Positions 29 to 34,045 of a DNA stretch of 64,000 bases are shown here, in pieces (the first letter of the stretch is position 1; each line of letters begins with the position of its first letter). The stretch spans positions 2,170,001 through 2,234,000 of the forward strand of contig NC_068569.1 of assembly GCF_025698545.1 (NCBI RefSeq), given 5' to 3'. A model generated the notes under the pieces. That model did not search any database and was not told where the DNA came from. It was given only the letters and a program-made list of their open reading frames with translations. The position numbers were made by a program, and so were the translations under genes. The DNA comes from Gossypium raimondii (taxonomy: Eukaryota; Streptophyta; Magnoliopsida; Malvales; Malvaceae).

Positions 29-4524
<4,496 letters not shown>

Positions 4525-6318
4525 TTGTACTTTGAAAGCTTTACATATAACCTATTCTTGAGAAGGGTGGTGGGTTTTATATTAGTTCATATAAAATCCT
4601 ATGTACCATGACAATTGTATTCAGATCTCATTACTTTATTTATTTGGACAGTTTTGATTTTAATTATGTATTTAGCTATGAATTTATTAATACCTGCAGC
4701 AAGGCCTAATTAACTAATTTATTTACCTATTTAAAACACTAATCGCTTTCAGCTGCTGAAGGATTGTCATGAAATATTATTAATTCACTTCTTTACTCCA
4801 AACCTTAATATTCATGTTAATATCGACTCATATTTAAACTATGTAATTGAATCAATTAGGTACTAAGTTGATAAATTATTAAAATGTACTATATATATAG
4901 AAGCTATATTTTGTGGGAGCATTTTTGTTTTTAGATTTTTATAAGAAATAAATAGAAACTCAATTATGATAAGAGTTGCTAATTTTAAACATTTCAATTA
5001 AATTATCATAATTTTTACATTATTTTTAACAAATAAATTTTTTCAATTACATTGTGAGTGTCATAATACAATATATATTTTATGTCTTGACATTTTTAAG
5101 ATGGAGGTCTTTAATCTTTGAATATTTAAAATCGAGTTTAATGTATGAATTTTTGATTCTAATATGTTTGTACGGCATATATATTTGTATTTCTACGAAT
5201 TATGTTTATAACAATAAAACAAGTCGAATAAATATATTTGAACAAAAAGTCAACAAAACAACAGGAAGTGAATAGTCAGAAATCTGGTGGCGTTCCACCC
5301 AAAATGGAAAGTGGGATGGAATGATAAATCCACTTGTTGGTTAAAAATTGAAGCTAATTGATGAATAATTAAGTGGAATGGAATGATCAAAATTCACCCA
5401 ACCTAACATGGTTGGAGCCTAATCAATTCCCCATTTTGCTATTAATTAATAATACATTATTATTCATCTATTTCCCAGTTGTACACTTATACTGCTCATT
5501 GAATTATCTTGCCCGCTTTATTTAATCCTGTATTTATTTAAAAGTATTTTTATTCATGTTGTTTGGTTTAAGTTAGACGAATTAATAATATTCATAAATA
5601 ATAAAGCAAACAATAAATAAGTACGTACCTTTTTATATATAAAATAAAAAATTTACACAATAAATTTTTTAGATTACACAAGGAGGGTTATATATATATA
5701 TATATTATAGGGTGTAGTAAAAAATAAAAAAATATTTAGATAAAAAATGAGTATTTGGTACACTAGTAGCGTACTTTGTTTATTTCACAAGTAATCTTAA
5801 AAAGTTGGCATGTGTTAATTTTTTTAAAAATATCTATTTTTTAATATTAGACTATATGCCTATAGGACACTTGTTAACCCCTTAGCCCTATTTGTGGGGT
5901 TTAAAAATTTCATTTGCAGTGCACTAAATATTTTTTCCTTATGTAAATTAATTTGACACTTGTCACACGCTCAATCTATTTGTGGAGTACTATAAAAAAC
6001 TTCATTGATAGTATATCAAATAATATAAACATATAAAAAGAAGGGTTAATATTTGACACACTAGTAATATATCTTTTTAATTCTGCAAGCAGTTTTAAAA
6101 AATTGTCATGTGTTCTTTTTTGAGTGTTTTCTTAATATTTTATCATATTTCTTTTGGGCACGTGTCAATCCCTTAACCTTACTTGTGGAGTCTAAAAACT
6201 TAATTGTGTACCGAATCTTTTCCTTAAAACAAATACACAAAACTATATTATTAATATTATAAATTATATAAAATTCAACAGTTCGAAATGATTTATTATA
6301 CCAGTGCTATAAATGAAC

Positions 6319-6349
<31 letters not shown>

Positions 6350-7302
6350 AAATATGAGTAAATTAAATAAACTTTGTTTATGCCGAATTCATTTAATAAA
6401 AAAAACTCAAAAGTTTTGTACATATACACATACCAAATTGGTAATAAATTATTACTCATTCAACTCTACGGGAACAAAACCATAAATCGATAAATCTATT
6501 AAAACTTTGATGTTATAAATCGATAAATCGATATAAAAATGATGGCAAAGAAAAGTAAAGGTAAAAGATACGTATGACTTACCATATGATTTTAAGAAAA
6601 TTGGCTTCCTCGTTTCGGGTTTAAAATATATTTTATAATTTTTTAAATAAAATTATTTATGTTCTTGTTATATTGCTATTTAATTTATTTTCAAAATAAT
6701 AAAAATTTAATAACATATAAATTAAATGTATTTGCATAACCAAATGTAAAAGAGAAGACAAAAACAAAAACAAAATATAATTATCATTGATATTAATTTT
6801 ATAAAATAAACTTACAACCAAAGATGCCAAGATCTTAGGCTCACTCTTTGTAAACCATATATTTTGGTCTAGATTTAAATAAATTTTGGTTTCGCTATAA
6901 TTATTTACAAGTATTTTTATAATTATAATTGTGATTATACGGGTAACATTTAAAAGAAAATCTTTATATATATATTAAATGAAAAATACATTATGTTTAA
7001 TGAGCTAGTAATATTGTAGTGTATTTTTTTATCAGACATAATTAAAATTTTTTGTTAACGGGTAACCACAAATCTCGAATAAAATAAATTCGAAAACCAA
7101 ATTTAATTATTCTAAGAAGGAACAAATAAAGAAGTTGACTTGCTGTAGAATGGATATTTTAATATCTCCAAAAAGGATATTAATGGAGGATATATAATAT
7201 TGTTGAATGAAATGAAGTGGGTGGGCTGTGGTGTGAACCATTTTCAGTTTTGTCTATTAGTATAAGCATGAAAGAGATGGACGTAACTTGGTTCTTATTC
7301 TC
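4525..7302. other. AT-rich spacer between ArgRS and the GH17 cluster
   Basis: No credible gene is seen. The stretch is strongly AT-rich with homopolymers and TA microsatellites (about 5692-5705 and 6319-6342). It is duplicated almost end to end at 20172-22943, which shows that it belongs to the segmental duplication. Short ORFs here are not conserved in frame between the two copies. Confidence 0.8.
5746..6232 (+). repeat. Imperfect direct repeats in the spacer
   Basis: Two diverged units share the same order of words: a 'gacacactagta'-like start, then 'cttaaaaa..tgtcatgtgtt', then 'gacacttgt..aa.ccctta', then 'tttgtggag'. The units start near 5746 and near 6054, with a partial third near 5950. 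The same arrangement recurs in the duplicated spacer around 21345-21800. Origin unknown. Confidence 0.55.
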
Positions 7303-7309
7303 TATAAGA
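7303..7309 (+). promoter_or_regulatory. TATA-like box of the orphan B-type GH17 first exon
   Basis: TATAAGA lies about 57 bases before the ATG at 7366. The same box occurs at 22944-22950 before GH17-B. Assigned by position and conservation only. Confidence 0.55.
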
Positions 7310-7365
7310 AGCAGCTTGGAATCAGATATTTTGGCATTAATTACTAAAAAAATCTTTAATGAAGA

Positions 7366-7420
7366 ATGGCTTCAACATTCAAGCTCGTCTTTGCTGTTCC
7401 TTTGTTGCTCCAGCTTTTAG
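7366..7420 (+). pseudogene. Orphan B-type GH17 signal-peptide exon
   Basis: The 55 bases encode MASTFKLVFAVPLLLQLL plus one base and end in a GT donor. They match the first exon of GH17-B at 23005-23059, with its promoter. Its own catalytic exon is missing: 300 bases downstream the sequence switches to D-type promoter sequence of GH17-A. The donor phase matches the acceptor at 14197, so it could in principle serve as an alternative first exon of GH17-A. Otherwise it is a relic of the exchange that made A. Confidence 0.75.
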
Positions 7421-7787
7421 GTATCTTCTTCTTCTCTACATTATGTGTTGTATTGCTTCTGCAATTAATAATATTAATTAAAACAATGAAGAATGGCTTT
7501 GCTATTCATCTCGGCTTAAGCCTTTGTGTGTGTATATATATATCAGGCTTTAATCTCTGATTTTGAGTCTGCTTGTTTTGTGCTTCATTCTTTTTCTTGT
7601 AGTTAATAGGAAGGTTTAATGGTAGTGACAGATGGTAGCATTGCTGTTACGAAATTTTACTCAAAAACAATCAGAAGAGTGTAAGGTTGGTACACTTGGG
7701 TGTACTATTGATATCAACAATTTAATGTTATACAATTGTGTGGGGGAGAGTTGTGAGGTACCAAAGACGGCATCGACTTTGGTCTTT

Positions 7788-7823
7788 GGTCAATGTTTTA
7801 TGTGACCATTGGTCACTATAAAA
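7788..7823 (+). promoter_or_regulatory. GH17-A core promoter: W-box-like site and TATA box
   Basis: TATAAAA at 7817-7823 lies about 67 bases before the ATG. GGTCAA at 7788-7793 is the complement of a W-box core (TTGACC), which in plants binds WRKY factors. The same arrangement precedes GH17-D. The W-box role is inference. Confidence 0.5.
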
Positions 7824-7889
7824 AGAAGCTTGGATGCCAGTTAGTGTAAAGGAAAGAGCAACATTATTTGGCATCAAATTTTAAAACCG

Positions 7890-10800
7890 ATGGCTTCAAG
7901 ATTTAAGCTTGTTTTTGCACTCTCTTTGTTGCTTCTTCTGTTAGGTATTCTCATATTTTCTTCTCTCTTTTTTTTTTCATAGTATTTATTTCTCAATTGA
8001 TCAATATATTAACTTCATGTTCAAGATTTTGATTTTATGTAATATTTGTGCTTAATTCTTTTGTTGATATGACCTCTATCTAAAAATTTTATTAGATCCT
8101 GTCTCTCTTTTGCTTAATTTTAGGAGCAAAATTTGATTAAGTGGAAAGAGTCAAAGAATAAAGACTGAACCATTTTAGAGTCAATGAACCTAACTCTTCT
8201 ACTTTTCTGTAACACCCTTTACCCGTATTCGACACCGGAATAGTCTACGAGGCATTACTAGAACACATACACTTACAAACATGTTAAACTGAGTTATAAA
8301 ATTTCATTCAAATTTAAACTCTTCAGATTTTAACATGCTTTTATAAATCTTCACATTATAACTTCAAAATACTATATTTGTAACAAATAGGGCTTCTGAG
8401 ACCCAATACATACTTATGTAATCCAATACTTCATTTTCATTTCATTTAATTCACGATTCTCATGTTTACGATTCAATTCAATTTCTTAATACAATATTGT
8501 AACACCCCTTACCCGTATTCGACACCGAAATAGGGTACGAGGCATTACCAGAGTTTACTAATTAATTTTCAGACATTTAATTTTTATCTAGCATTCATAT
8601 TTATAACCCATCAAAATCAAAACATTAATGAGCTAATGTTAACCAATTTAACTTGTACATGCCATTATAACCAGAATCAAATCATCCAAAATTACCGATA
8701 GAACCAATGGATAATGTGATATATCTCCAACAAGCTTCCAATCCAATCGAGCTTCCGATAATTATTTCAAAACATCTAATAATTATACATATTACCAATA
8801 ATAATTCAATTCCAATAATAAAACACACATATATGTATATAATATTCATTACCAAATAGCATTCACTTCAATTAAAATTATACAAAATATAGTTCATATG
8901 AATTTAACCGCTAAATTGCGTAAATACTAAAATTGTGGTTATTTTGAAAAATTTATATTTTCTCAATTTTCACCCAATCATAATCTAAATTAATATTTCA
9001 TTCAATGTACTAATTTAAATAATAAAACAACTCATTTCATATAATTTGGTCACTTTTTGACATTTTTTACAAATTTACCCTTAAAGTTTCACATTTGTTC
9101 AATTTAGTCTCTGAACCTAAAACATGTAAATTGGTCATTTCTAATGAAAACTCATGCTAGTTGAATAATCATATATTTTCCTCCTCCTCCTCTCCATTCC
9201 ACATCCTTAATGTATATAACATGCTTATAGGTAACATTATCTATAATTTCACCATTTACTTATATATTCATTCAAAGCTGTGCACTTGAGTCGTAGTCAC
9301 AAAATTATTTATATCTTGAGCTACAGAACTCAAAATTAAGATCCGTTAATTTTATCTGAAACTAGACTCACATATCTTCTTACCATAAAATTTTTCGAAT
9401 TTTTGGTTTGGCAAATAAGTACATTTTATTCTTTAAAGTCATCCCTATTCTGCTGTCTGACAGTTCCGACCCTTCTTTACTAAAAATTAATTATCTCATC
9501 GTACAGAATTAGAATGATGTTACCATTTATTTCTATTGAAAATAGACTTATTAAGGATTTAAACATATAAATTTAAGCCTCTAATTAATTTTCTCCAATT
9601 TTGATGATTTTCCAAAGTCAGTACAGGGAACCCGAAATCATTCTGACCTTGTCTCACAAAATCTATTATATCTTATAATCTAAAATTCCATTGCTTACAC
9701 TGTTTCTTCTATGAGAAACTAGACTCAATAAGTTTTAATTTAATATTTTTTCACCCTCTAATTCAATTTATACAATTTTTGATAGATTTTCAAAATCAGA
9801 CTACTGCTGCTGTCTCAAAACTGTTTTAGTGTAAAATGTTGATAACTAAATTTATAACACTTTCCTTTCCTTTCTCTTCAATATTTTCCATCACTTTCTC
9901 TTATTTCCTTTAATAACATAACAAGAATATAGAACCTTATATAATGAAACTCTTCCTTAACATTAATTTTCTACTTTTCAATAATATCAAACTCAAAAGT
10001 ATATAAAAATCTTGATGTTCTTACCTTATGCCATTGATTTCAATCTTTAACTTGAATTTTCTCCCTCCTCTAGCTTCTATTTCTTGAATCTAACTTGATA
10101 TTCTAGCTCCCCATAGTCTCCCTGTTATCTTTCTCTCTTGATGGATATGGAAATTCTTTTAATTTCTAAGTGAAAATGGTGAATTTTTGGTAAAAGGACC
10201 AAATTGTAAAGAAAAGAAAGTTTCTCTCTTTCTTTTCTCTTCATACGTTAGTTGCATGGGGAAAAAGATGATTCTTCATCTTTTCTTCCATATATATATA
10301 TACTAAACAAATTACTAATAAAATAATAAAATATCATTTAAAATCTAATTAAAATATTAATTAATAAACTAATATTTATTTATTTAATCTAAAATATCTC
10401 CAACATATCATTATTTTCTAGATTTCTCTTTCTTCTAATTGACCATTTTTCCCTTTAGATCTTTTAAAATTCCATCCTTGAGTCATCACTTAATTCGGTA
10501 AAATTATAATTTAGTCCCTCATGATTCTTCATCTATTCAATTTGGTCCCAATTCATCCATTTTCCTTAGTTTCTAGATTATTCTACCCTTAAAATATTTA
10601 AAATATTGGTCCTTCAAATTTTTCATATTTACACTTTAACCCCTAAACTTTTGAGTATTTACTCTTGGGTAACAAAACTTTTCCCACTTTTGCAATTTAA
10701 TCTTTTCTTGAATTAATACGTCATAATATATTTCCCAATGTTGACATAAATCAATTACCCTTTTATCACTTTATTTCCTTATTTTTCCATATCAGGGATA

Positions 10801-13800
10801 TTATCTTACTTTCTCACTGTAGAAATTTTCGGGATATTACAATTTCATAGCTAGTTAACCCTTCTAGCTTCTAGAATTCAAAATCTAAATTTTATACAAA
10901 TAGGTTCTTTCCTTAATTAATCACTAAATCGATAAAATTTTCATATCAGTATTTTCATGCAACCTTCCTATCATAATGCAACCCATGTCATAATTTTAAA
11001 ATAATTTTTTTCATCGGATTTGTGGTTCTGAAACCACTGTTCCAACTAGACCTAAAATCGGGCTGTTACAAATATACATTTCAATACTACAATAATTCAT
11101 TTAATTCAAATCATATCATTTGCAATTTCCATTTAATTCACGTACAGTTCAATTTCATTAAGTTCAATACTAATACATATTTATCGTTTAACGTCCCCTT
11201 TTTGCGTCATTTTACACTTCAAGCATGAACTTAGTATTTCGTTTCATTCACTCCCGTTTCCTATGCATATCACACAAGATATAAACATTACACTCAACCA
11301 TAGTCGCAAGCTAATCTTCTTGAAGACTAACCACATGACAAACCATTTTAATAAAGATTACAAACTTTAAACCTTACCACCCTTTTATGATCACAATCAA
11401 ATTTCCATCTAGACATTTACCATCACATTGCATAATTTTATAAATTTAATGTGGCATAATCTAGCCACAACTTGGCCAAAGCCTAAGCATACACACCAAA
11501 CATACTAGCCAAATTAATAAACATATAGTATAAGCATTATAAGCATCATTTCTATTTCAGCATCTATCAATTATAATCGAGCATATGACCAATTATACTC
11601 AAATCATTCATATATTTCCCAATTTTCCTCCTCCTCCTCTCCATTCCACATCCTTAGTGTGTATAACACACTTAAACAACATTAACTATAATTTTCACTA
11701 TTCACTCACATGTATATTCAAAGCTATTTATCCGAGTCAGAGTCACTAAATTATTTTTATCTAGAGCTACAGAGCTCTAAATTAAGATCCGTTAATTTTC
11801 CCTAAAACTAGACTCACATATCTTCTTACCATAAAATTTTTAGAATTTTTGGTTTAGTAAAATAGTACAGTTTATTATTTAAAGTTTCCCTATTTTACTG
11901 CTTGACAGTTTTGATCTCTCTTCACTAAAAATTAATTATCTCATTGTATAGAATGTGAATATTATTCTTGCTTGTTTCTCTTGAAAATAGACTCACTGAG
12001 GATTCTAAACATATAAATTTTATCCTGTAATTATTTTTGTACAATTTTAAAAATTTTCCAAAATCAGAACAGGGATTCTAAACTCATTCTGACTCTGTTT
12101 AACTAAACTTCAAATATATCAAAATATATAACTCTTTTGCTTTCTCTGTTTATTTTATGTGAAAATAGACTCATTCAGCTTTGGTTTCATATATTATTCA
12201 GCCTCTAATTCAATTTCCACCATTTTTATGATTTTTAAAATTCACGCAACTTTTGCTGTCTAAACTGTTTTGTTAATAAATGTACTCTTTCATAATTTCA
12301 CTTTTTCACTTTCAATCACAATTCAATTCAAAATTCACTTTTTCATTTCTAAGTCGATATTCAATTCAATTCCATATCTATATTCATTATTCAATTACAC
12401 TTAGTTAATTTCCCGATAAACACTTTGGAACAATAACAATAGATACTCGGTGAATTCAGTACATAGCAACCACCTTATTAATCAATGATGTTCGGTTCAC
12501 ATAATAGCCTGCACATAGTACTACACATGTGACCATTACCATCCGATACATGTAGTAGCCTGCATATAGTACTACACTCGTGATCGAAACTATCCGGTAC
12601 GCATAGTAGCCTGCATATAGTACTACACATGCGACCCATCATTCCGGTACACGTAGTAGCCTGCTAGTACGACACACGTGACCATCGCTTTCACTTTTAC
12701 ATAGTGGCCTACACACAGTTTGTGTCACACATGTGATCATTTTTGTCACTTCATTCGTATCCCTTTTTATTCCGGAGGTTCATTCGGGAATTTCTCTTTT
12801 TCTCACCTTTCTTTTTATCAATCAATTTCAATTTCTCGTCTTTCTTAATTTATAAAAATACATTTTGCTTATATAACATTCACACTATTCATTCCAGTCA
12901 AAAAATCATACTTTGGAAAAATTACGTTTTGCCCCTAAACTTTTGCATATTTTCACTTTTGCCCCAAAGCTTGGAAATTAAACATCATCCCTTATTCTTA
13001 TGTTTTATAACATGCTGAACATTTTTACCTTCTATGGTAACATCAAATTCCCACTCTAACACTTACTTATGAACATTAGGTATTTTTACCGATTATGTCG
13101 TTTAACTCGTTTTCACTTAAAATCGCCTAGCAAAGGTTGTTTAACATAATTTCAAACTTCATATTTTACCATAAAACATCAAAATAAACACATTTCACTT
13201 ATGAGTATTTTTCCAAATATGAACCCTAACATGAATTAATGGTAGAATAAACTAAATTGAGCTACGGGGACTATAAACATAAAAAAAATTAAAAACGGGG
13301 TTAGAACGGACTTACAATCGAGCTTGGAAGCTTGAAAACCCTAACCATGGCTTCCCCCTTGCTAAATTCGGCCTTATGGAGAAGATGGACAAAAATTGGC
13401 TTTTAATTTTGTTTTTAATTCGTTTTAATAACTAAATGACCAAAATGCCCTTAATGAAAAACTTTAGAAACATGCCTAACCATGTTTATTTTTTTCCACC
13501 AACTTAACCAATGGTCTAATTCCCTATAAAGACCTCCAATTTAAAATTTCATAACAATCGGACACCTCTAACATATAGAACACAACTTTTGCAGTGCCCA
13601 AACGTCAAAATTTTTGAAGGAAATTTTTACGAAATCATTTTGTGAAATCGTAGACCATAAAAATATAATAAAAATAAATTTTTTCTCGTCAAATTTGTTG
13701 TCCCGAAACCACTATTCCGACTGGCCCCAAATTTGGGCTGTTACATTTTCTACATACGCCACACAAATAAACAAAACAATATAATATTGGGAGGTCATTG

Positions 13801-16175
13801 GTCAATCATCAATGTGCCTTAAAGGAGGAGGATATTTTGGCAGTAGCTATTGGATTTCATAAACAATGGCCGTCCATGGCTTCAGATTCAAGCTTTTAGC
13901 CATCTTTTCTTCTTTTCATATTTGCTTAGACCATTGTATTTTCCAAGCTTTTAATATCTGATTTTGAGAAAACAATCTCAGCTCTTCCGAGTACTCTGCT
14001 TGTGTTGTGTGCTTTCATTCTTTTCCCTCTTTCTTATAATAACAGATGGGATATATGTAAATTTTCAAAATGTCTGAATCGTTTCATTTATCAGATATCT
14101 CAATATATATATATATATATATTATTTAAATTCGTATTAATATTTGTAGAATATCTGAATTTAAATCAAATATCAAAGTTCAATTTCGATGGGCAGATTT
14201 TTGTTGGGGAAACAAAGTTGGAGTTGACTATGGAATGGATGCTGATTATCTTCCATCCCCTGAAAAAGTAGCACAATTGGTTCGAAATCACAACATTCAG
14301 TACCTTAGGATTTATAATTACAGACCCGAAGTGTTGCGGGCGTTTTCAAACACCGGTATTGAACTTATGGTGGGAGTTCCTAATGCAGACTTATCACAAT
14401 TCCAGTCCCAACCATATGTAGATTCCTGGCTGAGGACTAGCATCCTCCCGTACCGCGAAGCCACAAAGATCACCCACATCACCGTAGGTGTTGAAGTGAC
14501 TAATAGCCCAGATAATGCCGCCAACTTGGTTGTGCGCGCCATGAGAAATGTCGTCTCTGCATTGAAATCGGCCAACCTGCAAGGTAAAATCAAGGTTTCA
14601 ACTCCACTCTCCTTCGGGGTTTTATCCAAATCCTACCCACCTTCCGAAGGGGCATTTAACAGTGGCTATGAATATGTCTTGAGACCTTTGTTGGACTTCC
14701 TAGAAGAGAACCAATCACCTTTTATGGTCAATTTATATCCTTTTTACGCTATTGAAGATTCTTCTTTGGATGCTGTTCTGTTTAAGTCACCCTCTCCCAT
14801 TTTCGTAGATCAGAATACCGGTCTTAGTTACAAGAACATTTTTGATGCTCAGCTAGACGCTGTTTTTTACGCCATTGCCAATCTGAATTTCAGAACAACT
14901 AGGAACACATTTGATGCTCAGCCAGATACTGTTCATTTTACCTTGGCCGATACTGATTTGATAATAAGTGACATTATTGCTGCGGAAACCGGCTGGCCTA
15001 CACGTGGTTCTAGGCGACCACATGCAAGTACTCACAATGCCAAGACTTATAACTATTCTGCTAGTCTTGACAGTGTAGACGACTACGCTAACATTGACAA
15101 TGCCCAGACTTACAACACCAACTTAATTAGTCATGTTATGGGTGGCTCCGGGACGCCTGCTAGGCCTGGTGCAAACCTAGATGTGTACATTTTCTCCTTG
15201 TTTAATGAGAACCTGAAGCAAGGACCGGAAACAGAGAGAAACTTTGGTTTATTTTATCCCGACATGACGAGTGTTTATAACCTGGTCTTCCCTGGAAAAG
15301 GAACCGGAAGAAGCTGGTGCGTTGCTTCTAGACAGGCTTCAAATTCGGCTTTACAGAATGCGCTAGATTGGGCTTGTGGTCCGGGAAAGGCGGATTGCTC
15401 CGCCCTTCAGCCTGACCAGCAATGTTTTGAACCAAATAATCTAGTTTCTCATGCCTCTTTTGCATTCAACAATTACTACCAGAAAAACGGGCTCACTGAT
15501 CAAGCATGCCGTTTTGGAGGAACTGGGATCGTAGTCTATAACGACCCTAGTAAGTCAATTACTTTATGCAGAATTTGATCACAATATTGCATGATATCTC
15601 AACTCTAAAAATCTAAAAAACTATTTTCCATTATTTGTGCAGGCTATGGTAATTGCATCTATAATGGTAAGTACAGATTCTTAAACATCTCATGTACCAT
15701 ACCTATTTTTCTTTTGCCCCCCCACTTTCTATTTTTGCATATTTGATATCATTAGAGAAACTGGGATTTTTTTATTTTCACAGTAAAAAGTAGGGATCCG
15801 AATGGAAGAACTTGGTGCGTTGCTACTAGTCAGGCTTCTAGGTCGAATTTACAGAATGCATTAGATTGGGCATGCGGTCCTGGAAAAGCTGATTGTTCGG
15901 AAATTCAGCCTAACCAGAGATGTTTTCAGCCTGATACTCTACTTGCTCATGCCTCTTTCGCCTTCAACAATTACTACCGGAAAAATGGTGCTACAGATGC
16001 TTCCTGCAGTTTCCGTGGAAATGCAATCAAAGTTGATCGGGATCCTAGTAAGTCTCTTGTTTGACCCTTCCATTTAACTCATCTGATTTTCCAAACTGCA
16101 AACAGTTATATATCTATCTAATTTATTTGTGCAGGCTATGGTAATTGCATCTATCACTGTAAGTACAAATTCTGA
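7890..16175 (+). CDS. GH17-A: secreted glucan endo-1,3-beta-glucosidase-like protein with two X8 domains (chimeric)
   Basis: Family role: hydrolysis of beta-1,3-glucan (callose) in the apoplast. Exons 7890-7944, 14197-15549, 15643-15666, 15784-16047 and 16135-16175 give 578 aa, all introns phase-consistent. Exon 1 encodes a hydrophobic signal peptide. The GH17 barrel begins VGVDYGMDAD (residue 26). The acid/base region reads VGVEV (Glu118; Asn replaced by Val) and the nucleophile region AAETGWPTRG (Glu282). Residues 232-254 and 255-277 are a tandem duplication. Two X8/CBM43 modules follow (about 390-477 and 485-570), with the usual six Cys in the first. There is no C-terminal GPI signal. The 5' two thirds match GH17-D and the rest matches GH17-B. 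Substitutions at conserved places (VVRAMRN, AAETGW) suggest relaxed constraint. Intron 1 holds nested LTR elements. If the third intron-proximal donor at 15550 is not used, translation stops at 15578 and the last X8 Cys is lost. Confidence 0.85.
8498..11070. mobile_element. LTR-type insertion (inner, nested, probably a solo LTR)
   Basis: The element starts TGTAACACCCC at 8498, ends GGGCTGTTACA at 11070, and is flanked by AATAT at 8493-8497 and 11071-11075. It lies inside the outer element. Its interior is related to the outer one: for example, the run of CTCC near 9180 and the following 400 bases are mirrored at 11625-12010. No gag or pol reading frame is visible. Confidence 0.82.
12491..12740 (+). 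repeat. About 50-bp tandem repeats inside the outer LTR element
   Basis: Four to five units start near 12491, 12541, 12593, 12642 and, weakly, 12690. Each contains a 'GTAGCCTGC' word followed by 'TAGTACTACAC' and 'GTGA(C/T)C'. Such arrays are common in the U3 part of plant LTRs; the function here is unknown. Confidence 0.75.
13866..13899 (+). pseudogene. Relict GH17 first-exon fragment inside GH17-A intron 1
   Basis: An ATG followed by a shortened signal-exon-like sequence (MAVHGFRFKLL) sits after promoter-like sequence about 330 bases before exon 2. Equivalent fragments occur at 34536-34571 (D) and 30918-30942 (C). The hydrophobic core is truncated and no GT donor follows directly, so it is probably an ancient decayed copy of exon 1. 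Confidence 0.55.
14835..14972 (+). repeat. In-frame 69-bp tandem duplication within the GH17-A coding exon
   Basis: Positions 14835-14903 and 14904-14972 encode diverged 23-residue copies beginning NIFDAQLDAV and NTFDAQPDTV. GH17-D has the same duplication at 35508-35576 and 35577-35645. GH17-B and GH17-C have a single copy, so it arose in the A/D lineage. Confidence 0.88.
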
Positions 16176-17217
16176 AACATCCCATGTTCCATACACTGTC
16201 TATTGTTAATATTATCATTACACGCTGATTCCGTTTTTTTCGATTTGTACAGAAGAGGACTTATCATAAGAATAAAGTAGTTGTGATTATCGTGGGCGAC
16301 CGCATGAGCTAAGCTAATGTTACCAGCGTATAATTATTGCGATTATCACATGATTACCAAAACTGCAGCTTGTAATACGACTACCATTGCTACTTCTTTG
16401 TAATGGTTTTCATCAGTGAATCTATCAAAAATAACGTTTACGGTTAAAAAATAGGGAATAGGATCGATCTCATAAGGATTTTAGATTGCCCTTGTTTGAA
16501 TTTTTCATAACCAGAACATTTCGTGAACAGTTTAGTGCACACAACTCTTGCTCTCTTGGGTAAAATAAGTAAAAGGATTAAAGTAATATAAAATTAAATA
16601 AATTAAAATCAAACATCAATAAAATAGTAAATAAAAACCCATGGTACTGTTCCCAACACCTCACCAAAGATTATTTTTGAAATGACATAAAAAATAATAA
16701 TATGAGATGGTCTTATCTATTTTTTAAACCGAAAAAAAATAATATTCAAATGAAAAGAATTTAACTGTAATTTCAGATCTCCCAACTCAAATCCCAAAAT
16801 TTAGTCAACTTTTAACTGAAAATAGTTTAATTGCTGATATATAGTAAAAAAATTAACAAAAAAAATTAAGAAGAAATAAAGCTAAAATAATAAAAAGAAA
16901 GAAACGGCAAGTAAGCGCAAGCTACAATTGAAAAGCAAAAACCTCTTCCCCCAAAAAACAAAAGCAAGAAAAAATGCACCCTTTGTTTCTTCAATTTCCA
17001 GTATTTATGCTGAAAACTGATACATAGTATTTACTCCTATACAAAACTTTAAAGATAAAGTTTATCTAAATAAAATATAAGGAATAAAACTTAATCCTAA
17101 TTAAATTCTTAATAAATATTTTTACAGATATTATTTAAATAAAAATAATAAAAATAAATATTATATAAAATAATCTCAAATCTTTCATGTGACTTCATAT
17201 TTTCACTTGTTCCCGAC
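15183..17217 (+). repeat. Near-identical 3' block shared by GH17-A and GH17-B
   Basis: This block matches 25537-27595 with only a few substitutions and small indels. The part inside exon 2 (15183-15549 against 25537-25903) is identical by eye. Upstream of 15183, A follows GH17-D instead. The block includes the last part of the barrel, both X8 modules and about 1 kb of 3' flank. Confidence 0.92.
16176..17217. other. GH17-A 3' flank
   Basis: No gene is seen. A possible extra splice acceptor at about 16252-16253 would only add a stop codon. The tail from about 16418 is AT-rich sequence of unknown origin that also follows GH17-B (26799-27595). It ends abruptly at CCGAC, where the truncated ArgRS copy begins. 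Confidence 0.7.
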
Positions 17218-17283
17218 ATTTTGACTCTCTCTCTCTTGATGTACTTGTATTCATTTAGACTTATCTCTTTGTGCTCATTTAAG

Positions 17284-20171
17284 GGTGGAGAAGAAAAGTG
17301 TCGCAGGGCATGGGCACAAATATGTGAAATCAGCCGGACTGAATTTCATAAGGTCTATCAACGACTTGGATTTCATTTAGAGGAAAAAGTAAGTAATGTC
17401 AAATGTCAACCTCTATGTATTGTTATATTTTGGTCAGCTTAGTTAATTTTCAGGTGCACTTCTACATAAAAACTTCTCTATGACATTCAGGGATCATTGC
17501 AAAACTCCTTTTTTTTATGATTTACTTCGATTTTTTCTTTATATCTTGGACCTATTTATATAATTATCTTTAATCTTGTACAAACCGTAAATATTGTGTT
17601 TATTGATTTTAACATTTATATAATTGACAGAGGTCTTGCTTATGTGCAATTGTACACCATCATGCTACTTTGACATATTCCACCAAGCTAGTCAAGTTTT
17701 CTACAACCTCATTTTAGAATGTTTTGTCCCTAGTGCAAATGGTGCTCCTGATTGACCTATTTATGATTATTTCCTTGTTGACAGGGAGAGAGCTTTTATA
17801 ATCCTTATATTCCTGGGGTTATAGAAGGGTTGACCAAACAAGGATTAGTTGAGGAAAGTCAGGGAGCTCGTGTGATCTTTATTGAAGGCATTAATATACC
17901 TCTTATTGTTGTGAAGAGTGATGGTGGTTTCAACTATGCATCAACTGACCTGGCTGCTCTTTGGTAAGTTTTCTTCCGTTATTTGATGTTACGAGCCTGT
18001 AGTTTTTGTTTGGCATTCCTTGCCAAATGTCAGAATTATGTGCCAGCCAAGTGAATTACTGAAATTACCCTGGCTAGAATTACAAAAGTGGTTCTTGGTT
18101 CGAAATTTCTTGAGCGTTTAAACTTTAGATGATATATTGTTTATTGTTTCCTTTTTCATGTTGATCTCATTGGGTACTCTGTTAGGCCAATTTGTTTTGA
18201 TAATTGTACTTTTTTACTAATTATGGAGCAATCTTACTGCGTTGACATGGAACATGTTAGTCTAGCATAGGAATTAATTAGCTTCCTTATCGATCTTTTT
18301 AGTTTCAATTTTGTAGGTATCGCCTCAATGAAGAGAAAGCTGAGTGGATTATATATGTTACTGATGTAGGCCAACAACAGCATTTTGATATGGTGTTCAA
18401 AGTATTTTCTCGAAGTTGTTTCTTGAATTCTGTTGTGTAATATTTTAAAACCCTTTGTTAATCTTATTCAACTTACTGGGACTATATTGATGTTTGTGAA
18501 TACCATTATAATGATCATAAAGAGTTATTCCGGCTTTTGACATCTAGTCTTTTGCTGTATATTCTGAAACTATTTTGGTTATTTTTCAGGCTGCCAAACG
18601 TGCAGGGTGGCTTCCTCAAGGTGATAATTATCCCAAAGCTAGCCATGTTGGTTTTGGACTTGTTCTTGGAGAAGATGGCAAGCGTTTTCGAACCCGTAAC
18701 ACTGAAGTAGTTCGTTTAGTTGATCTACTTGATGAAGCCAAGAACCGAAGTAAAGCAGCACTTATCGAGCGTGGTATGATATTGAACCTTATCTCTGTTG
18801 TTACAAATGTTTTTCAGCTCTTTTTAACTACCTTATGTTTGTCAGTCTATTAGTGATGTATTTGTTACTGCAAGTTCTTTCGGTTGTTAAATTGTGTAGC
18901 CTTTGAACTTTTCAACCTCTTGTATCTGAAATTGTTACTTTGTGTGCCAATCAGGTAAGGGTGAAGAATGGACCGAGGAGGAGATTGAGAGTACTGCTGA
19001 TGCAGTTGGTTATGGTGCTGTAAAGTAAGCTACTTATTATTATATCAAGTTATTTATGTAATCTAATTAGTATTGCTATGTTCTTCTCAGTAGTTCTTGT
19101 ACTATTTTGTTTACTTTTTAATATTCATTAAATCTGATTGCAGGTATGCTGACTTGAAGAACAACAGATTGACCAATTATACATTCAATTTTGACCAGAT
19201 GCTTAACGATAAGGTGCCTAATAGTTTTTTATTTAGACTGCAAATATTGTGGAACTGGTTTCATCATTTTGGCCTGTAGTGAACTTTTTATGATGAAAGT
19301 TTCCCATGTTTCTTCTGCTGCTTCTGATTGTAGTTTTCTGCTTCTAAATTTTTTTAATGGCAGGGCAACACTGCTGTTTATTTGCTATATGCTCATGCTC
19401 GAATATGTTCAATCATCAGGAGATCTGGTAAAGATGTGGAGGAGCTAAAGAATGTAAGTTCCCCCTCAATCTGAAGAAGTACCGTTGTAAATCTTTTAGT
19501 TGCCTTTTTATGTATTGACATTAGTATGCTGTTATTAGGCTAAGTAGAACAACTCTTTTGTATCAGATTCAATAGCTGCAACTTTTACCCATTATCTCTT
19601 TGTTTTTAATAGAAGGGGACATTAGTATTGGAGCATAAGGATGAGCGCGATTTGGGCTCCATTTGCTGCAGTTTGCTGAGGTAAGAACTTAAGGAAAAAA
19701 AAGAACAATCTATTTATTGTTTCTTGACTTAGGCTCGGTCTGACAAATTTTTATCTTGCTTTGAGGTTGTTGAGGAGGCTTGTACCAATTTGTTACCGAA
19801 TGTTGTGTGTGACTACCTCTATAGTTTATCCGAAATCTTCTCCAAATTTTACAGCAACCCTGAGTGCAAGGTATGATCAACGATCTAATTATATGGTTTC
19901 TTGGTAAAATAAACCTTGTTATTGCTCGTCACCTTGCCCTCACAAGGCCGTTCACCTAGTGTTGAAACTAGGAAAGTTCTAATGGCGGAGTGATTCTAGG
20001 TAAAAGATGTTGCAATGAAACTTTGAGATGACATGTGGCATATATTGATGAAATGAGCAGGTTATCGGGTCAGATAAGGAAACAAGTAGACTACTATTAT
20101 GTGAAGCAACTGCAGTGGTTATGAGAAAATACTTCAATCTCCTGGGAATCACACCTATTTACAAGATATGA
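17284..20171 (+). pseudogene. Truncated and frameshifted ArgRS copy
   Basis: Ten exon equivalents are present: 17284-17388, 17785-17963, 18317-18401, 18590-18773, 18955-19024, 19144-19213, 19364-19453, 19613-19680, 19766-19870, 20061-20171. All exons upstream of the duplication edge are absent, including the one with the HVGH motif. In the exon at 19613-19680 a G is missing from the GATTTGGGG run near 19650-19657, so that exon is 68 rather than 69 nt and the frame shifts. Most other codons are conserved (differences such as GGEEKC for GGDEKY), which fits a recent duplication. It cannot encode an active synthetase; transcription from upstream sequence remains possible. Confidence 0.93.
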
Positions 20172-22943
20172 TTGTACTTTGAAAGCTTTACATATAACCT
20201 ATTCTTGAGAAGGGTGGGTTATATATTAGTTCATATAAAATCCTATGTACCGCGATAATTGTATTCAGATCTCATTACTTTATTTATTTGGACAGTTTTG
20301 ATTGTACTTATGTGTTTTAGCTATGAATTTATTCATACCTGCAGCAATGTCTAATTAACTAATTTATCTACCTATTTGAAACACTAATTGCTTTCAGCTG
20401 CTGAAGGATTGTCATGAAATATTATTACTCTACTTCTTTTACTCCAAACCTTAATATTCATGTTAATATCTACTCATATTTATATTATGTAATTGAAATT
20501 GATAAATTATTGAAATGTCCTATATATATGGTAGCTATATTTTGTGGGAGCATTTTGTTTTTAGATTTTTATAAGAAATAAATAGAAACTCAATTATGAT
20601 AAGAGGTGTTAATTTTAAACATTTTAATTAAATTATCATAATTTTATATTATTTTTAACAAATAATTTTTTTCAGTTACATTGTGAGTGTCATAATACAA
20701 TATATATTTTATGTCTTGACATTTTTAAGATGGAGGTCTTTAATATTTGAATATTTAAAATCGAGTTTAATGTAAAATTTATGTTTGTACGACATATATT
20801 TGTAATTCTACGAATTATATTTATAAGACAATAAAACAAGTCGAATAAATATATTTGAACAAAAAGTCAACAAAACAACAGGAAGTGACTAGTCAGAAAT
20901 CTGGTGGCGTTCCACCCAAAATTGAAAGTGGTATGGAATGATAAATCCACTTGTTGGTTAAAAATTGAAGCTAGTTGATGAATAATTAAGTGGAATGGAA
21001 TGATCAAAACTCACCCAACCTAACATGGTTGGATCCTAATCAATTCCCCATTTTGCTATTAATTAATAATAATACATGATTATTCATTTATTTCCCAGCT
21101 GTACACTTATACTGCTCATTGAGTTATCTTGCCCGCTTTATTTAATCCAAATTATGTCTGTTGTTTGGTTTAAGTTAGATGAATTAATAATATTCATAAA
21201 TAATAAAGCAAACAATAAATAAGTACGTACCTTATTACACAATAAAAATTTTTAGATTACACAAGCAGGTTAAGGGTTTGCTATATATATATATTATAGG
21301 GTGTAGTAAAAAATAAAAAAATAATTTAGATAAAAGAGTGAGTATTTGGTACACTAGTAGCCTACTTTGTTTATTCCACAAGTAATCTTAAAAATTGGCA
21401 TGTGTCAATTTTTTTAAATGTCTATTTTTAATATTATACTATACTCTTATAGGACACTTGTTAGCCCTTAACCCTATTTGTGGGGCCTAAAATTCCATTT
21501 GTAGTGTACTAAATATTTTTCCTTATGTAAATTAATTTGACACTTGTTATACACTCAACCCATTTGTGGAGTACTATAAAAAACTTCATTGATAGTGTAT
21601 CAAATAATATAAATATATAAAAGAAGGGTTAGTATTTGACACACTCTTTTTAATTCTACAAACAATCTTAAAAATTGTCATGTGTTCTTTTTAAGTGTTT
21701 TCTTAATATTTTATTATATTTCTTTATGACACTTGTCAATCTTCTAACTTTACTTGTGGAGTTTAAAAACTTAATTGATGGTGTGCGAATTTTTCCTTAA
21801 AACAAATACACAAAACTATATTATTAATATTATTAAATATATAAAATTGAACAGTTTGAAATGATTTATTATACCAATGATATAAATGAACATAAATAAT
21901 ATTTTTTTACAAAATATAAGTAAATTGAATAAACTTTGTTTATGTAGAATTCATTTAATAAATAAAACTCAAGGTTTTGTACATATACACATATTTAATT
22001 TAATAAACAAATAAGAGTAATAAATTATTATTCAAATGCTTTATTCATTTACGAGACTAAATTCAACCATAAATCGATAAATCGATACAAATATGATGGC
22101 AAAGGAAAGTAGAGGTAAAAGACACTTATGACTTACCATATGATTTTAAGAAAACTGGCTTCCTCGTTTCGGTTTTAAAATATATTTTATAATTTTTAAA
22201 TAAAATTAATTATGTTCTTGTTATATTGCTATTTAATTTATTCAATTCTTTATTTTTATTTTCAAAATAATAAAATTTAATAACATATCAATTAAATGTA
22301 TTTGCATAACAAAATGTAAAAGAGAAGACAAAACAAAAACAAAATATAATTATCATTGATATTAATTTTATAAAAATAAACTTACAACCAAGGATGCCTT
22401 AATGGATATCAAGATCTCGGCTCACTCTTTGTAAACCGTATATTTTGATCTAGATTTAAATAAATTTTGGTTGTCAAATGATAAGTTTCGGTTCTAATTA
22501 TTTGAAAGTATTTTTGTAATTATAATTGTGATTACACCGCTAACATTTAAAAAGAAAACCCTTACATATATTAATTGAAAAATACATTAAGTTTAATGAG
22601 CTAGTAATATTGTAGTGTATTTTTTTTTGACAGACATAATTAAAAAATTACCATATGTCTCATTTTTTGTTAGTGAGATAACCACAAATCCCGAACATGG
22701 GCTTGAAGAATACCAAAATAAATTTGGAAAAACCAAATTTAATTATCCTAAGAAGGAAGCAAATAAAGAAGTTGAGTTGATGTAGAATGGATATTTTAAT
22801 ATCTCCAAAAAGGATATTAATGGAGGATATTGTTGAATGAAATGAAGTGGGTGGGCCGTGGTGTGAACCATTTTCAATTTTGTTTAGTAGTATAAGCATG
22901 AAATAGATGGACGTAGTTTCCTCTCAACTTGGTTCTTTTTCTC
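20172..22943. other. Second copy of the AT-rich spacer
   Basis: This is the paralog of 4525-7302, with indels. No gene is seen. The short minus-strand reading frame at 22660-22899 is not supported by the other copy. Confidence 0.8.
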
Positions 22944-22950
22944 TATAAGA
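22944..22950 (+). promoter_or_regulatory. GH17-B TATA-like box
   Basis: TATAAGA lies about 55 bases upstream of the ATG at 23005, in the same place as in the orphan copy at 7303-7309. Confidence 0.55.
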
Positions 22951-23004
22951 AGCAGCTTGGAATCAGATATTGGCATTAATTACTAAAAAAATCTTTAATG
23001 AAGA

Positions 23005-26000
23005 ATGGCTTCAACATTCAAGCTCGTCTTTGCTGTTCCTTTGTTGCTTCAGCTTTTAGGTATCTTCTTCTTCTTCTCTACATTATGTGTTGTATTGCTT
23101 TGCTATTCATCTCGGCTTACGCCTTTGTGTATATATATATCAGGCTTTAATCTCTGATTTTGAGTCTGCTTGTTTTGTGCTTCATTCTTTTTCTTGTAGT
23201 TAATAGGAAGGTTTAATGGTAGTAACAGATGGTAGCATTGTTGTTAACGAAATTTTATTCAAAAACAATCAGAAGAGTGTAAGGTTGGGTACACTTAGAT
23301 GTGTATTATTGATGTCAACAATTTTCTCTTGTTTTTAGGAGTTATTATTATTATTATTTAAGAAATAACTTAATATATTTATATATATATGAAACAAAGA
23401 AGTAAGAGAAGATGGTGAAAATGTTAGACTAATGATAGTTGAGAAAAATAGTCAAAATGTTTAAGTAAACAATCAACACCATGAATCATAAACATGGAGG
23501 GTCTCAAGCCAGACTTATCAATTAAAATTCTCTTTACTATTGTGAACTAAATAAAATGCATTAAAAACAAATTTGTAAATTTATATTCAATATTAATTCC
23601 GGCAGCTCAATTTTATGATTGTAGCATTGTTGTTTGTAAAAATTGAATTGAATATATAATATATTTTAAAGGGTTGGTACATAAATTTCATGTACCATCG
23701 ATGAATAATAACATAACACATTATCATTAAATGAAACAAAAATAATGGAGGACTTATAAAATGTACACTAATAACTTTATTTATATAATTAAATAATAAT
23801 TAATTATAAATAAACCCTAAACTTGAGACCTTCCACCTTAAACTCGAGACCGAGACCTTACACTATAAACCAACCTAAATTTGAGAGTTATTGATATTTA
23901 TTTATAATAGTTACGATTAATTATGTTTAAATTAAATTATTAATATTTATTTATAAGTCTTCTCTATATTTTTTATTTAATTTAATGATGATGTGTCATA
24001 CTATTATTCATTGATGGTGCAGAAAATTTATGCACCGACAATGCATCAAATATTACTCCTATTTAAAAGTGTAAAATATAATTTAAAGAATTTTAAACTT
24101 AACCGAGATTGAAATATAAAAATATGATTAAATTAGAAAAGTAACATACAAATAACATAATTGAAATATTCACAAAAATGCATAATTTTTTTGAAAAATT
24201 TTGCTATTAGTCATTGTGTTATACTGAAAATTATTGATTTAATCCATCTATTTTATTTTGATTTTAAAAAATATATTTACTTCTTCAATTTTGAAATTTC
24301 AAACTTAATTATAGCTGTTAAATGCTATATGTTCCAAAAAAATATAAAAAAATGAAATGATTAAATTAAAATTTACACATAGAATTTAACATTTTTTTTG
24401 TTGGCTCTTGTTACTTCCTATCAAAGGGGAATAAGCAAAGAATTTCGTTCGCCATATTTGAGTGAGATTATTGATGTAAGAAGCAGTGATGACGATGATA
24501 AGCCAATTGCTTACTATACTTTTCCATTTCATTGCAGAAAAGAAATGCAGTATTTTTGTTTTTGCCTTAGGAAAATACGTGCTAATCGTGTTGTTTCATC
24601 TTTATTTCTACTGACAACTTAAAAACCGGTCAATTTCGCTGTCCAGATTTCTGTAGGGGAGGTAAAGTTGGAGTTGACTACGGAACGGATGCTAATAATC
24701 TCCCATCACCTGATCAAGTATCAGATTTGGTTAAAAAACACAACATTCAATACCTCAGGATTTATGATTCTGATCCCAAAGTGCTGAAATCCTTGTCAAA
24801 CACTGACATTGAACTTATAGTAGGAGTTCATAATGATGACTTATCCAAATTCCAGTTCCAATCTTATGTAGATTCCTGGGTGAAGAACAGCATCCTCCCA
24901 TACTACCCCGCTACAAAGATCACCGACATTTCTGTAGGTGTTGAAGTGACTGATAGCCCAGATGCCGCCAACTTAGCTGTGCCCGCCATGAGAAATGTCG
25001 TTTCAGCGTTGAAAAAGGTTGGCCTGCAGGATTGGATCAAGGTTTCAACTCCACTCTCCTTTGGGGTTTTATCCAAATCCTACCCACCTTCCGATGGGGC
25101 ATTTGACGGTAGCCATGATAATGTCTTGGGACCTTTGTTGGACTTCCTGGAAGAGAACCAATCACCGTTTATGGTCAATTTATATCCTTTTTACGCTATT
25201 GGAGATTCTTCTTTGGATGCTGTTCTGTTTAAGTCACCCTCTACGATTTTCGTAGATCAGAATACCGGTCTTAGTTACAAGAACATTTTTGATGCTCAAC
25301 TAGATGCTGTTCATTTCGCTTTGGCCAAACGGAAATCCAGAAGCATACCGATTATTGTTACGGAAACCGGCTGGCCTACGAGAGGTTCAGGAAGACATAG
25401 GTTAGCGATGGCTAGTCTTGACAATGATGACGACTCCTACGCTAGTATTGACAATGCCCAGACTTACAACACCAATTTAATTCGTCATGTTACGGATGGC
25501 TCTGGTACGCCTGCTAGGCCTGATGAAGAGCTAGTTGTGTACATTTTCTCCTTGTTTAATGAGAACCTGAAGCAAGGACCGGAAACAGAGAGAAACTTTG
25601 GTTTATTTTATCCCGACATGACGAGTGTTTATAACCTGGTCTTCCCTGGAAAAGGAACCGGAAGAAGCTGGTGCGTTGCTTCTAGACAGGCTTCAAATTC
25701 GGCTTTACAGAATGCGCTAGATTGGGCTTGTGGTCCGGGAAAGGCGGATTGCTCCGCCCTTCAGCCTGACCAGCAATGTTTTGAACCAAATAATCTAGTT
25801 TCTCATGCCTCTTTTGCATTCAACAATTACTACCAGAAAAACGGGCTCACTGATCAAGCATGCCGTTTTGGAGGAACTGGGATCGTAGTCTATAACGACC
25901 CTAGTAAGTCAATTACTTTATGCAGAATTTGATCACAATATTGCATGATTTCCCAACTCTAAAAATCTAAAAAACTATTTTCCATTATTTGTGCAGGCTA

Positions 26001-26544
26001 TGGTAATTGCATCTATAATGGTAAGTACAGATTCTTAAACATCTCATGTACCATACCTATTTTTCTTTTGCCCCCCCCCCCCCCCGCCCCACTTTCTATT
26101 TTTGCATATTTGATGTCGTTAGAGAAACTGGGATTTTTTTTTATTTTCACAGTAAAAAGTAGGGATCCGAAAGGAAGAACTTGGTGCGTTGCTTCTAGTC
26201 AGGCTCCTAGGTCGAATTTACAGAATGCATTAGATTGGGCATGCGGTCCTGGAAAAGCTGATTGTTCGGAAATTCAGCCTAACCAGAAATGTTTTCAGCC
26301 AGATACTCTACTTGCTCATGCCTCTTTCGCCTTCAACAATTACTACCAGAAAAATGGTGCTACTGATGCTTCCTGCAGTTTCCGTGGAAATGCAATCAAA
26401 GTTGATAAGGATCCTAGTAAGTCTCTTGTTTGACCCTTCAATTTAACTCATCTGATTTTCCAAACTGCAAACAGTTATATATCTATTTAATTTATTTGTG
26501 CAGGCTATGGTAATTGCTTCTATCACTGTAAGTACAAATTCTGA
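23005..26544 (+). CDS. GH17-B: secreted glucan endo-1,3-beta-glucosidase-like protein with two X8 domains
   Basis: Exons 23005-23059, 24647-25903, 25997-26020, 26153-26416 and 26504-26544 encode 546 aa. Exon 1 gives the signal peptide MASTFKLVFAVPLLLQLL. The mature GH17 domain starts near FCRGGKVGVDYG. The acid/base Glu118 lies in VGVEV, where family members normally have VGNEV. The nucleophile Glu259 lies in VTETGWPTRG. Unlike A and D, there is no 23-residue duplication, so the barrel has about normal spacing (141 residues between the two Glu). Two X8/CBM43 beta-1,3-glucan-binding modules follow (first Trp at residue 360), separated by the linker VKSRDPKGRT. There is no GPI signal, so a soluble cell-wall protein is likely. 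It is the most regular copy of the cluster. Intron 1 (23060-24646) differs from that of A and D. Intron 3 carries an expanded poly-C tract at 26071-26090. Confidence 0.87.
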
Positions 26545-27595
26545 AACATCCCATGTTCCATACACTGTCTTGTCGCCCTTTCTATTGTTAATATTATCAT
26601 TACACGCTGATTCCCTTTTTTTTGGATTTGTACAGAAGAGGACGTATCATAAGAATAAAGTAGTTGTTGTGATTATCGTGGGCGACCGCATGAGCTAAGC
26701 TAATGTTACCAACGTATAATTATTGCGATTATCACATGATTACCAAAACTGCAGCTTGTAATACGACTACCATTGCTACTTCTTTGTAATGGTTTTCATC
26801 AGTGAATCTATCAAAAACAACTTTTACAGTAAAAAAATAGAGAGTAGGATGATCTCACAAATATTTTAGTTTGCCCTTGTTTGAATTTTTTCAGAACATT
26901 TCGTGAACAGTTTAGTGCACACAACTCTTGCTCTCTTGGGTAAAATAAGTAAAAGGATTAAAGTAATATAAAATTAAATAAATTAAAATCAAACATCAGT
27001 AAAATAGTAAATAAAAACCCATGGTACTGTTCCCAACACCTCACCAAAGATTATTTTTGAAATGACATAAAAAATAATAATATGAGATGATCTTATCTAT
27101 TTTTAAACCGAAAAAATAATATTCAAATGAAAAGAATTTAACTGTAATTTCAGATCTCCCAACTCAAATCCCAAAATTTAGTCAACTTTTAACTGAAAAT
27201 AGTTTAATTGCTGATATATAGTAAAAAAATTAACAAAAAAAATTAAGAAGAAATAAAGCTAAAATAATAAAAAGAAAGAAAACGGCAAGTAAGCGCAAGC
27301 TACAATTGAAAAGCAAAAACCTCTTCCCCCAAAAAACAAAAGCAAGAAAAAATGCACCCTTTGTTTCTTCAATTTCCAGTATTTATGCTGAAAATTGATA
27401 CATAGTATTTACTGCTATACAAAACTTTAAAGATAAAGTTTATCTAAATAAAATATAAGGAATAAAACTTAATCCTAATTAAATTCTTAATAAATATTTT
27501 TACAGATATTATTTAAATAAAAATAATAAAAATAAATATTATATAAAATAATCTCAAATCTTTCATGTGACTTCATATTTTCACTTGTTCCCGAC
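25537..27595 (+). repeat. Near-identical 3' block, GH17-B copy
   Basis: This is the partner of 15183-17217. It ends at CCGAC (27595), directly against the TGTAACACCCC edge of the next repeat element. The stretch 26545-27595 contains no gene. Confidence 0.9.
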
Positions 27596-32860: not shown

Positions 32861-34045
32861 AACATCCTATGTACCCTACACGTTGTCTTATCGCCCTTTC
32901 TATTGTTATATTTCATCATTACATGCTGCTTCCGTTTTTTCGATTTGTACAGAAGAGGAGGTATCATGAGAATAAAGTAGTTGTTGTGATTATTGTGGAC
33001 GAGTGCATGAGCTAAGCTAATGTTACCAACGTTCAATTGTTGTGATTATCATGCTGGACTACCAAATTAAACTGCAGCATGTAATACGACTACCGTTGCT
33101 GCTGCTACTTCTTTTCTCAATACGGTCTGAGGTGTGCACATGGATATTGCTAGCTAGTTTCTTAGTGATGGTTTTTTAGTTTCTCAAGCTGGGCAACTCG
33201 TTAGATGGATCATCTGGAAGATAGTTGACTAGTTTTAAACATATATGAAGGTTGCCTCTAGTTTTTGTTTGGTCTTCAATAATGCATGTATGTGGTAGAA
33301 TATATACACTAGTATGCTCAACTTTTTTTGATTTGTTTCATGTTTTTGACAATTCTTCAAATTTTGGTTAAGGAGATTTTACAATCGGATAGATATGTTT
33401 TTAAAATTGTTGTTTAATTTTATTCTTTTTGATCAAGACTGTTATACTTTCTACTGAAAAAATATATTAATTATTTTTTTATTAAATTTGAAAACTCAAT
33501 CATTTTGAGTTGAGTCGAACAACACTTTAATTTTTAAAGATAAATATCAAAACTATATATTAACTCGATTCAATGTGTAATATGTCATACATGAACATTG
33601 ATTTCGTCATTACTAATATTATTGAATCTGCAGTTTACTCTCATATACTGCAGAACAAGCAATTATATTAATCCAATATGAAAATAAATGTATGTACTCA
33701 TTTCTTTAAATGTATACCATTGAATTACAATAAAATTTTCATATATACATATGAACTACAAATCAAGTTTCATGTATATAATTGTATAGAATCAAAATTT
33801 TAATTTGATATTTATTTTATTTTTAATTTTAATTTCAAAAAAACTTCATAAAATAAAGACAATATAGTGATTATAAAGTCAATATCCCTATTTTCCCTCC
33901 TTTTATACGTACACAAGTGGATGAAACAATTTAATGTTATACAAGTGGAGGAGAGTTGTGAGGTATCAAAGACGGCATCGACTTTGGTCTTTGGTCAATG
34001 CTTTATGTGACCATTGGATTTCCAATCTGGTGGCTAGTTTTTCGC
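32861..34045. other. Spacer between GH17-C and GH17-D
   Basis: This spacer contains the GH17 3' flank (similar to 29810 and 36600), an AT-rich stretch, and from about 33925 the D-type promoter that is copied in front of GH17-A. No gene is seen. Confidence 0.7.

Follow-up and report, generated by a model that had tools for sequence, protein, structure and literature searches.

The window, a stretch of 64,000 nucleotides from Gossypium raimondii (C5:2170001-2234000), contains four GH17 copies, A, B, C and D, all on the plus strand (Table 1). BLAST pairs place GH17-A in unit 1 and GH17-B in unit 2 of a tandem repeat, so that A and B lie within one tandem duplication. An arginyl-tRNA-synthetase-like gene spans the left edge of unit 1. 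Among the five frames scanned there with Pfam, tRNA-synt_1d scores above the cut-off in three (335-616, 2044-2226 and 2834-3136) and just under it in a fourth (1448-1705), and it is absent from frame 762-1097. Because the left edge of unit 1 cuts this gene, the matching part of unit 2 (17220-19346) should hold only its truncated later part. Another TGTAACACCC sequence begins at 27596, exactly where the tail of B ceases to match the tail of A; an insertion may therefore hide the true right end of unit 2.

A, B and D all have open frames in our hand-made models. The A model consists of a signal-peptide-like first exon, a GH17 domain and two X8 domains (578 aa), and the B model has the same layout. 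Pfam finds Glyco_hydro_17 and X8 above the cut-off in all three products, in agreement with these domains. The second X8 domain is encoded by exon 4 of A and by 26153-26416 in B, whereas the D model has a single X8. The 4.3 kb examined of the paralogues from C6 and C8 likewise contain one X8 each, so within this group the additional domain appears to be new in the B tail.

Intron 1 of A carries an insertion that interrupts the D-type stretch, is absent from D and C, and went unmentioned in the earlier, sequence-only reading of this DNA. The insertion and the smaller element nested in it both have TG...CA ends and a 5-bp target duplication, as is typical of LTR retroelements, and the longest open frame overlapping the insertion spans 93 aa. 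The similar stretches 9175-9827 and 11622-12271 (80%) were considered as an LTR pair, but we now read the insert as two related elements, one nested in the other, each of which has a target duplication of its own. They are possibly solo LTRs of one family.

Table 1. Features of the GH17 array, with positions counted from the first base of the window
Feature	Position	Strand	Description
Tandem unit 1	1466-17217	+	BLAST pairs; partner is unit 2 (17220-27595); contains GH17-A
B-type first exon of A, MASTFKLVFAVPLLLQLL	7366-7420	+	open, with intact donor; TATAAG at 7303
Left junction AACAATTT	7716-7723	+	common to the B intron (23317-23324) and the D promoter region (33925-33932)
D-type tract	7724-15181	+	1915 bp without the insertion and one target-duplication copy; promoter region, exon 1, intron 1 and 985 bp of exon 2
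D-type first exon of A, MASRFKLVFALSLLLLLL	7890-7944	+	TATAAA at 7817
Insertion in intron 1 of A	8208-13745	.	5538 bp; termini TGTAACA...TGTTACA; target duplication TTTTC at 8203-8207 and 13746-13750
Nested related element	8498-11070	.	2573 bp, inside 8208-13745; own target duplication AATAT
Exon 2 of A	14197-15549	+	GH17 catalytic domain, D-type up to codon 347 and B-type from 351 on; first X8 domain
Right switch interval	15182-15193	+	12 bases; last D-type site 15181, first B-type site 15194
A-B identical run	15182-15595	+	0/414 differences; probably a recent conversion tract
Exon 3 of A	15643-15666	+	hand-made model
Exon 4 of A	15784-16047	+	second X8 domain, B-type; absent from D model
Last coding exon of A	16135-16175	+	hand-made model; stop at 16175 if no further splice
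GH17-B	23005-26544	+	hand-made model; exons 23005-23059, 24647-25903, 25997-26020, 26153-26416, 26504-26544; GH17-X8-X8, 546 aa
GH17-C	31498-33100	+	decayed; 206 aa is the longest open frame listed
GH17-D	34125-36350	+	hand-made model; exons 34125-34179, 34870-36222, 36325-36350; GH17-X8, 477 aa; donor type

The two edges of GH17-A

At the level of sequence, GH17-A is confirmed as a mosaic, with a B-type start, a D-type middle and a B-type end. On the left, A had been proposed to follow B up to 7723 and to become D-type from the 8-base word AACAATTT, and this is what the alignments give. The 200 bases left of the word (7516-7715) reach a local alignment score of 162.5 against B and of 8.5 against D, the latter below the best of 300 shuffles (14.5). 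Right of the word the preference is reversed: the score is 133.5 for 7724-7923 against D and 7.5 for 7724-7889 against B, where the best of 300 shuffles gives 13.0. The word stands at all three positions at which it had been reported, in A, B and upstream of D. Taken alone it is common in the window, where it occurs at eight places on the plus strand, the others being 27816, 30286, 30833, 48925 and 59313. Yet random point pairs drawn from the same two stretches share at least 8 junction bases in only 0.055% of 2,000,000 draws, which, together with the abrupt change of score, supports the proposed microhomology.

Promoter sequence upstream of the word is common to C and D and absent from A (score 19.5; best of 300 shuffles, 11.0). 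The word thus lies inside a natural D-type promoter region of which A has a cut version, and D is on the donor side; A is the recipient, since a B-type first exon remains in it. The donor types B and D both still stand in the array, as after a non-reciprocal transfer. Two queries of the plant's own 751-Mb genome, in which the best candidates were scored (6 of 6 and 5 of 5), returned no other D-type copy, no closer donor than D among these candidates, and no reciprocal product.

On the right, the return to B-type sequence, earlier placed at about 15183, falls in the 12 bases of the switch interval (codons 347-351, directly before the stretch FNENLK). The stretch 14196-15703 offers 209 informative sites, all ungapped in A, B and D and with A agreeing with B or with D. 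The 134 sites up to 15181 are D-like in 120 cases and B-like in 14; from 15194 onwards 74 of 75 are B-like, with a single D-like site at 15599. None of 2000 permutations attains the chi-square of this split. When three topologies are compared, the C6 and C8 paralogues serving as outgroups, the best tree joins A with D left of the switch (delta lnL 78) and A with B right of it (delta lnL 57). Sites, permutations and trees all show a significant change of the closest relative along the gene, and they bear out a homologous switch inside exon 2, for which a conversion or crossover had been suggested. An ectopic gene conversion has both of its ends resolved within homology; this is so for the right end of the tract and not for the left, where only 8 bases are shared, and we therefore favour end-joining or template switching on that side.

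A separate observation concerns the neighbouring copies. Right of the switch, D groups with C (support 95; 31514-32720 and 34870-36222), and left of it no such grouping is seen, so that D or C may be mosaic too.

The sequence after the switch had been called identical to GH17-B. This is true of 15182-15595, but the next stretch (15596-17217) has 38 A-B differences at 1613 ungapped sites (2.4%). Over the D-type tract, 87 of 1878 sites distinguish A from D (4.6%, gap columns excluded). The lack of differences in the identical run departs from the A-D comparison (Fisher p = 3e-8) as well as from the A-B comparison beyond the run (p = 3e-4), and simulations yield an identical run of at least 414 bases in 0.11% of cases with 47 evenly spread events and in 0.62% with 38 substitutions alone. 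The counts of 0/414 and 87/1878 differences make the right edge much more recent than the transfer from D to A. A later A-B conversion probably reset it, what is seen now being the end of that conversion tract, and the original edge could have lain anywhere from 15182 to about 15599; local constraint could have lengthened the run. A single template switch that made both edges is rejected, because the edges differ in age.

It is also conceivable, though quite improbable in our judgement, that the transfer originally ended at the present switch and that chance or constraint kept the 414 bases identical, an idea compatible with either of the two histories discussed below. The run consists mostly of coding sequence, and substitutions alone do produce such a run in the small fraction of simulations given above. 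However, B and D differ at many sites within it, A and B are not identical in the nearby second X8 exon, and the value of 0/414 lies so far under that of the A-D tract that the run could be as old as the transfer only if it were constrained.

Order of events and competing explanations

The relative age of duplication and transfer is not settled, because the divergence between A and B is patchy and the patches point in different directions. Along the left flank, the divergence of unit 1 from unit 2 ranges from 1.7% to 11.4%, the upper value including one badly aligned patch. In 5800-7080, A and B differ at 67 of 821 sites when 6400-6599 is left out, against 31 of 763 noncoding sites between A and D (p = 8e-4); with the patch included, the count is 112 of 982 (p = 1e-8). 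The former figure speaks for a split of this part of the flank before the split of A from D, and so for a duplication that preceded the transfer. Within the patch, the units differ at 39 of 79 sites in 6400-6499, although the flank is otherwise alignable, which may reflect a misalignment or a replaced piece. The A-D tract, with 87/1878, is in turn more diverged than the nearest A-B flanks (59/2193, p = 9e-4), and A-D noncoding sites are more diverged than the A-B tail in 15596-17217 (33/1518, p = 0.015). Taken alone, these two comparisons point to an earlier split of the D-type middle than of the flanks. Two further parts, 4600-5799 (51/991, p = 0.31) and 7081-7715 (13/409, p = 0.52), show no difference from A-D. 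We are inclined to place the duplication first, then the transfer, and the retouching by B last.

Together, the data suggest a model in which a B-type gene of unit 1 was overwritten by a tract from an ancestor of D and later retouched by B, and we would put its probability at about 60%. GH17-A would at first have been a B-type GH17 gene, namely the copy in unit 1. In an ancestral repair event, about 1.9 kb from the ancestor of GH17-D would have been copied over about 2.2 kb of that gene. The incoming piece would have been joined on the left within the B-type intron 1 through the 8 bases of AACAATTT, and resolved on the right by homology within exon 2, somewhere between 15182 and about 15599. 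A later exchange of a short stretch (15182-15595) between B and A would have produced the present right edge, and the nested retroelement-like insertions, absent from D, would have entered the new intron 1.

A different history, which we consider possible if unlikely, builds the chimera by deletion and crossing-over. A deletion at the microhomology would fuse intron 1 of B to the promoter of D with the loss of about 10.6 kb, a homologous crossover in exon 2 would restore the B tail, and an unequal crossover would bring the chimeric gene to lie ahead of an intact B unit. With its copies arranged as B-C-D, the array has the right geometry for this, and the greater divergence of A from D than of A from B in the nearest flanks and the right tail is what one would expect if the chimera predated the duplication. 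Nevertheless, it takes three events where the overwriting model takes one transfer, and the older A-B split in part of the left flank (67/821 against 31/763) is at odds with it.

Near-identical tandem copies are prone to assembly errors, and short-read polishing could have generated the 414 identical bases, so that an artefact joining B and D reads has to be considered as well. We hold it to be very improbable and have set such a mis-join aside, since the D-type middle (4.6%) and the B-type tail (2.4%, beyond the run) each have private differences; A, moreover, carries its own 5.5-kb insertion with a target duplication.

First exons, products and comparison with known systems

GH17-A had been described as a gene with a D promoter and a B carbohydrate-binding tail. 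It does have a D-type promoter region and a B-type tail, but a B-type promoter region and a B first exon are retained upstream; this is the orphan exon that had been noted at 7366. The B-type and the D-type first exon are both open and join exon 2 of A in the same splice phase, so that on the sequence A has two usable first exons and may be transcribed from either promoter region. Its retained second promoter region and first exon, the unequal ages of its edges, the second X8 domain and the nested insertion are new beyond the sequence-only reading.

First-exon-like ATGGCTTC copies occur in intron 1 of C (30918), D (34547) and A (13876). The copy in C clearly resembles the main first exon and promoter region (score 31.0; best shuffle, 13.5); the resemblance is weaker for the copy in D (19.0; best shuffle, 13.0) and marginal for that in A (14.5; best shuffle, 13.0). 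One may speculate that the array gains regulation by stacking modules of promoter plus first exon, with capture at microhomologies as a recurrent route by which expression of the cluster is rewired. The idea draws on the two intact, phase-matched first exons of A in front of one chimeric GH17-X8-X8 body and on the decayed first-exon-like copy in its intron, and we regard it as doubtful.

If spliced as modelled, the product of A would combine a mostly D-type catalytic domain, whose last part is B-type, with two B-type X8 glucan-binding domains. The two glutamates that we take to be catalytic are present in A, B and D, in the motifs VGVEV and ETGW; only the first of them falls within the alignments to 6jms and 2cyg. 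A and D differ from B by in-frame insertions before and after the second. Both solved chains shown have VGNE where A, B and D have VGVE, and the asparagine before the proton-donor glutamate presumably has a role in GH17 enzymes; the C6 and C8 paralogues have Leu at this position. Left of the switch, A and D are separated by a dN of 0.0485 and a dS of 0.0547 (dN/dS about 0.9). Polarisation with B, over codons ungapped in all three genes, places 19 nonsynonymous and 6 synonymous changes on the A branch and 14 and 1 on the D branch, with 1 synonymous change unplaced. The changes look nearly neutral, which makes the function of A doubtful.

GH17-A is a plant gene built from two neighbours and resolved to the base, with one edge at a microhomology and one that probably stems from a later homologous exchange. 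Its position would come out wrong in a gene tree of entire GH17 coding sequences, and as a putative two-promoter chimera the gene lends itself to a test of expression. The locus did not turn up in the literature searched, which included the accessible parts of PMC3449122, PMC4033164 and PMC12540407. The search likewise found no paper on "two X8 domains" with glucanase, nor on gene conversion of tandem GH17/X8 domain genes.

In their combination of GH17 and X8, as seen by Pfam, A, B and D resemble the plant GH17 beta-1,3-glucanases with a C-terminal X8 (CBM43), and the eight solved chains matched include beta-1,3-glucanases, the pollen allergen CJP38 and a 1,3-1,4-beta-glucanase. Unlike plant GH17-X8 enzymes, they have Val for Asn before the first catalytic glutamate. 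More than one X8 is already allowed for, since GH17 types with "one or more X8 domains" are defined in the part of PMC4033164 available to us. Chimeric or mosaic duplicates in tandem arrays are attributed to ectopic gene conversion and non-allelic homologous recombination (PMC3449122, as far as its text was accessible). As in the mosaic tandem duplicates described there, one paralogue, GH17-A, derives from two neighbouring paralogues with sharp switches between them; it departs from what we saw of those cases in having one edge at a microhomology and not in homology, and in the unequal age of its two edges. In kind, the mosaic is ordinary reshuffling within a tandem array, by a mechanism of a known sort.
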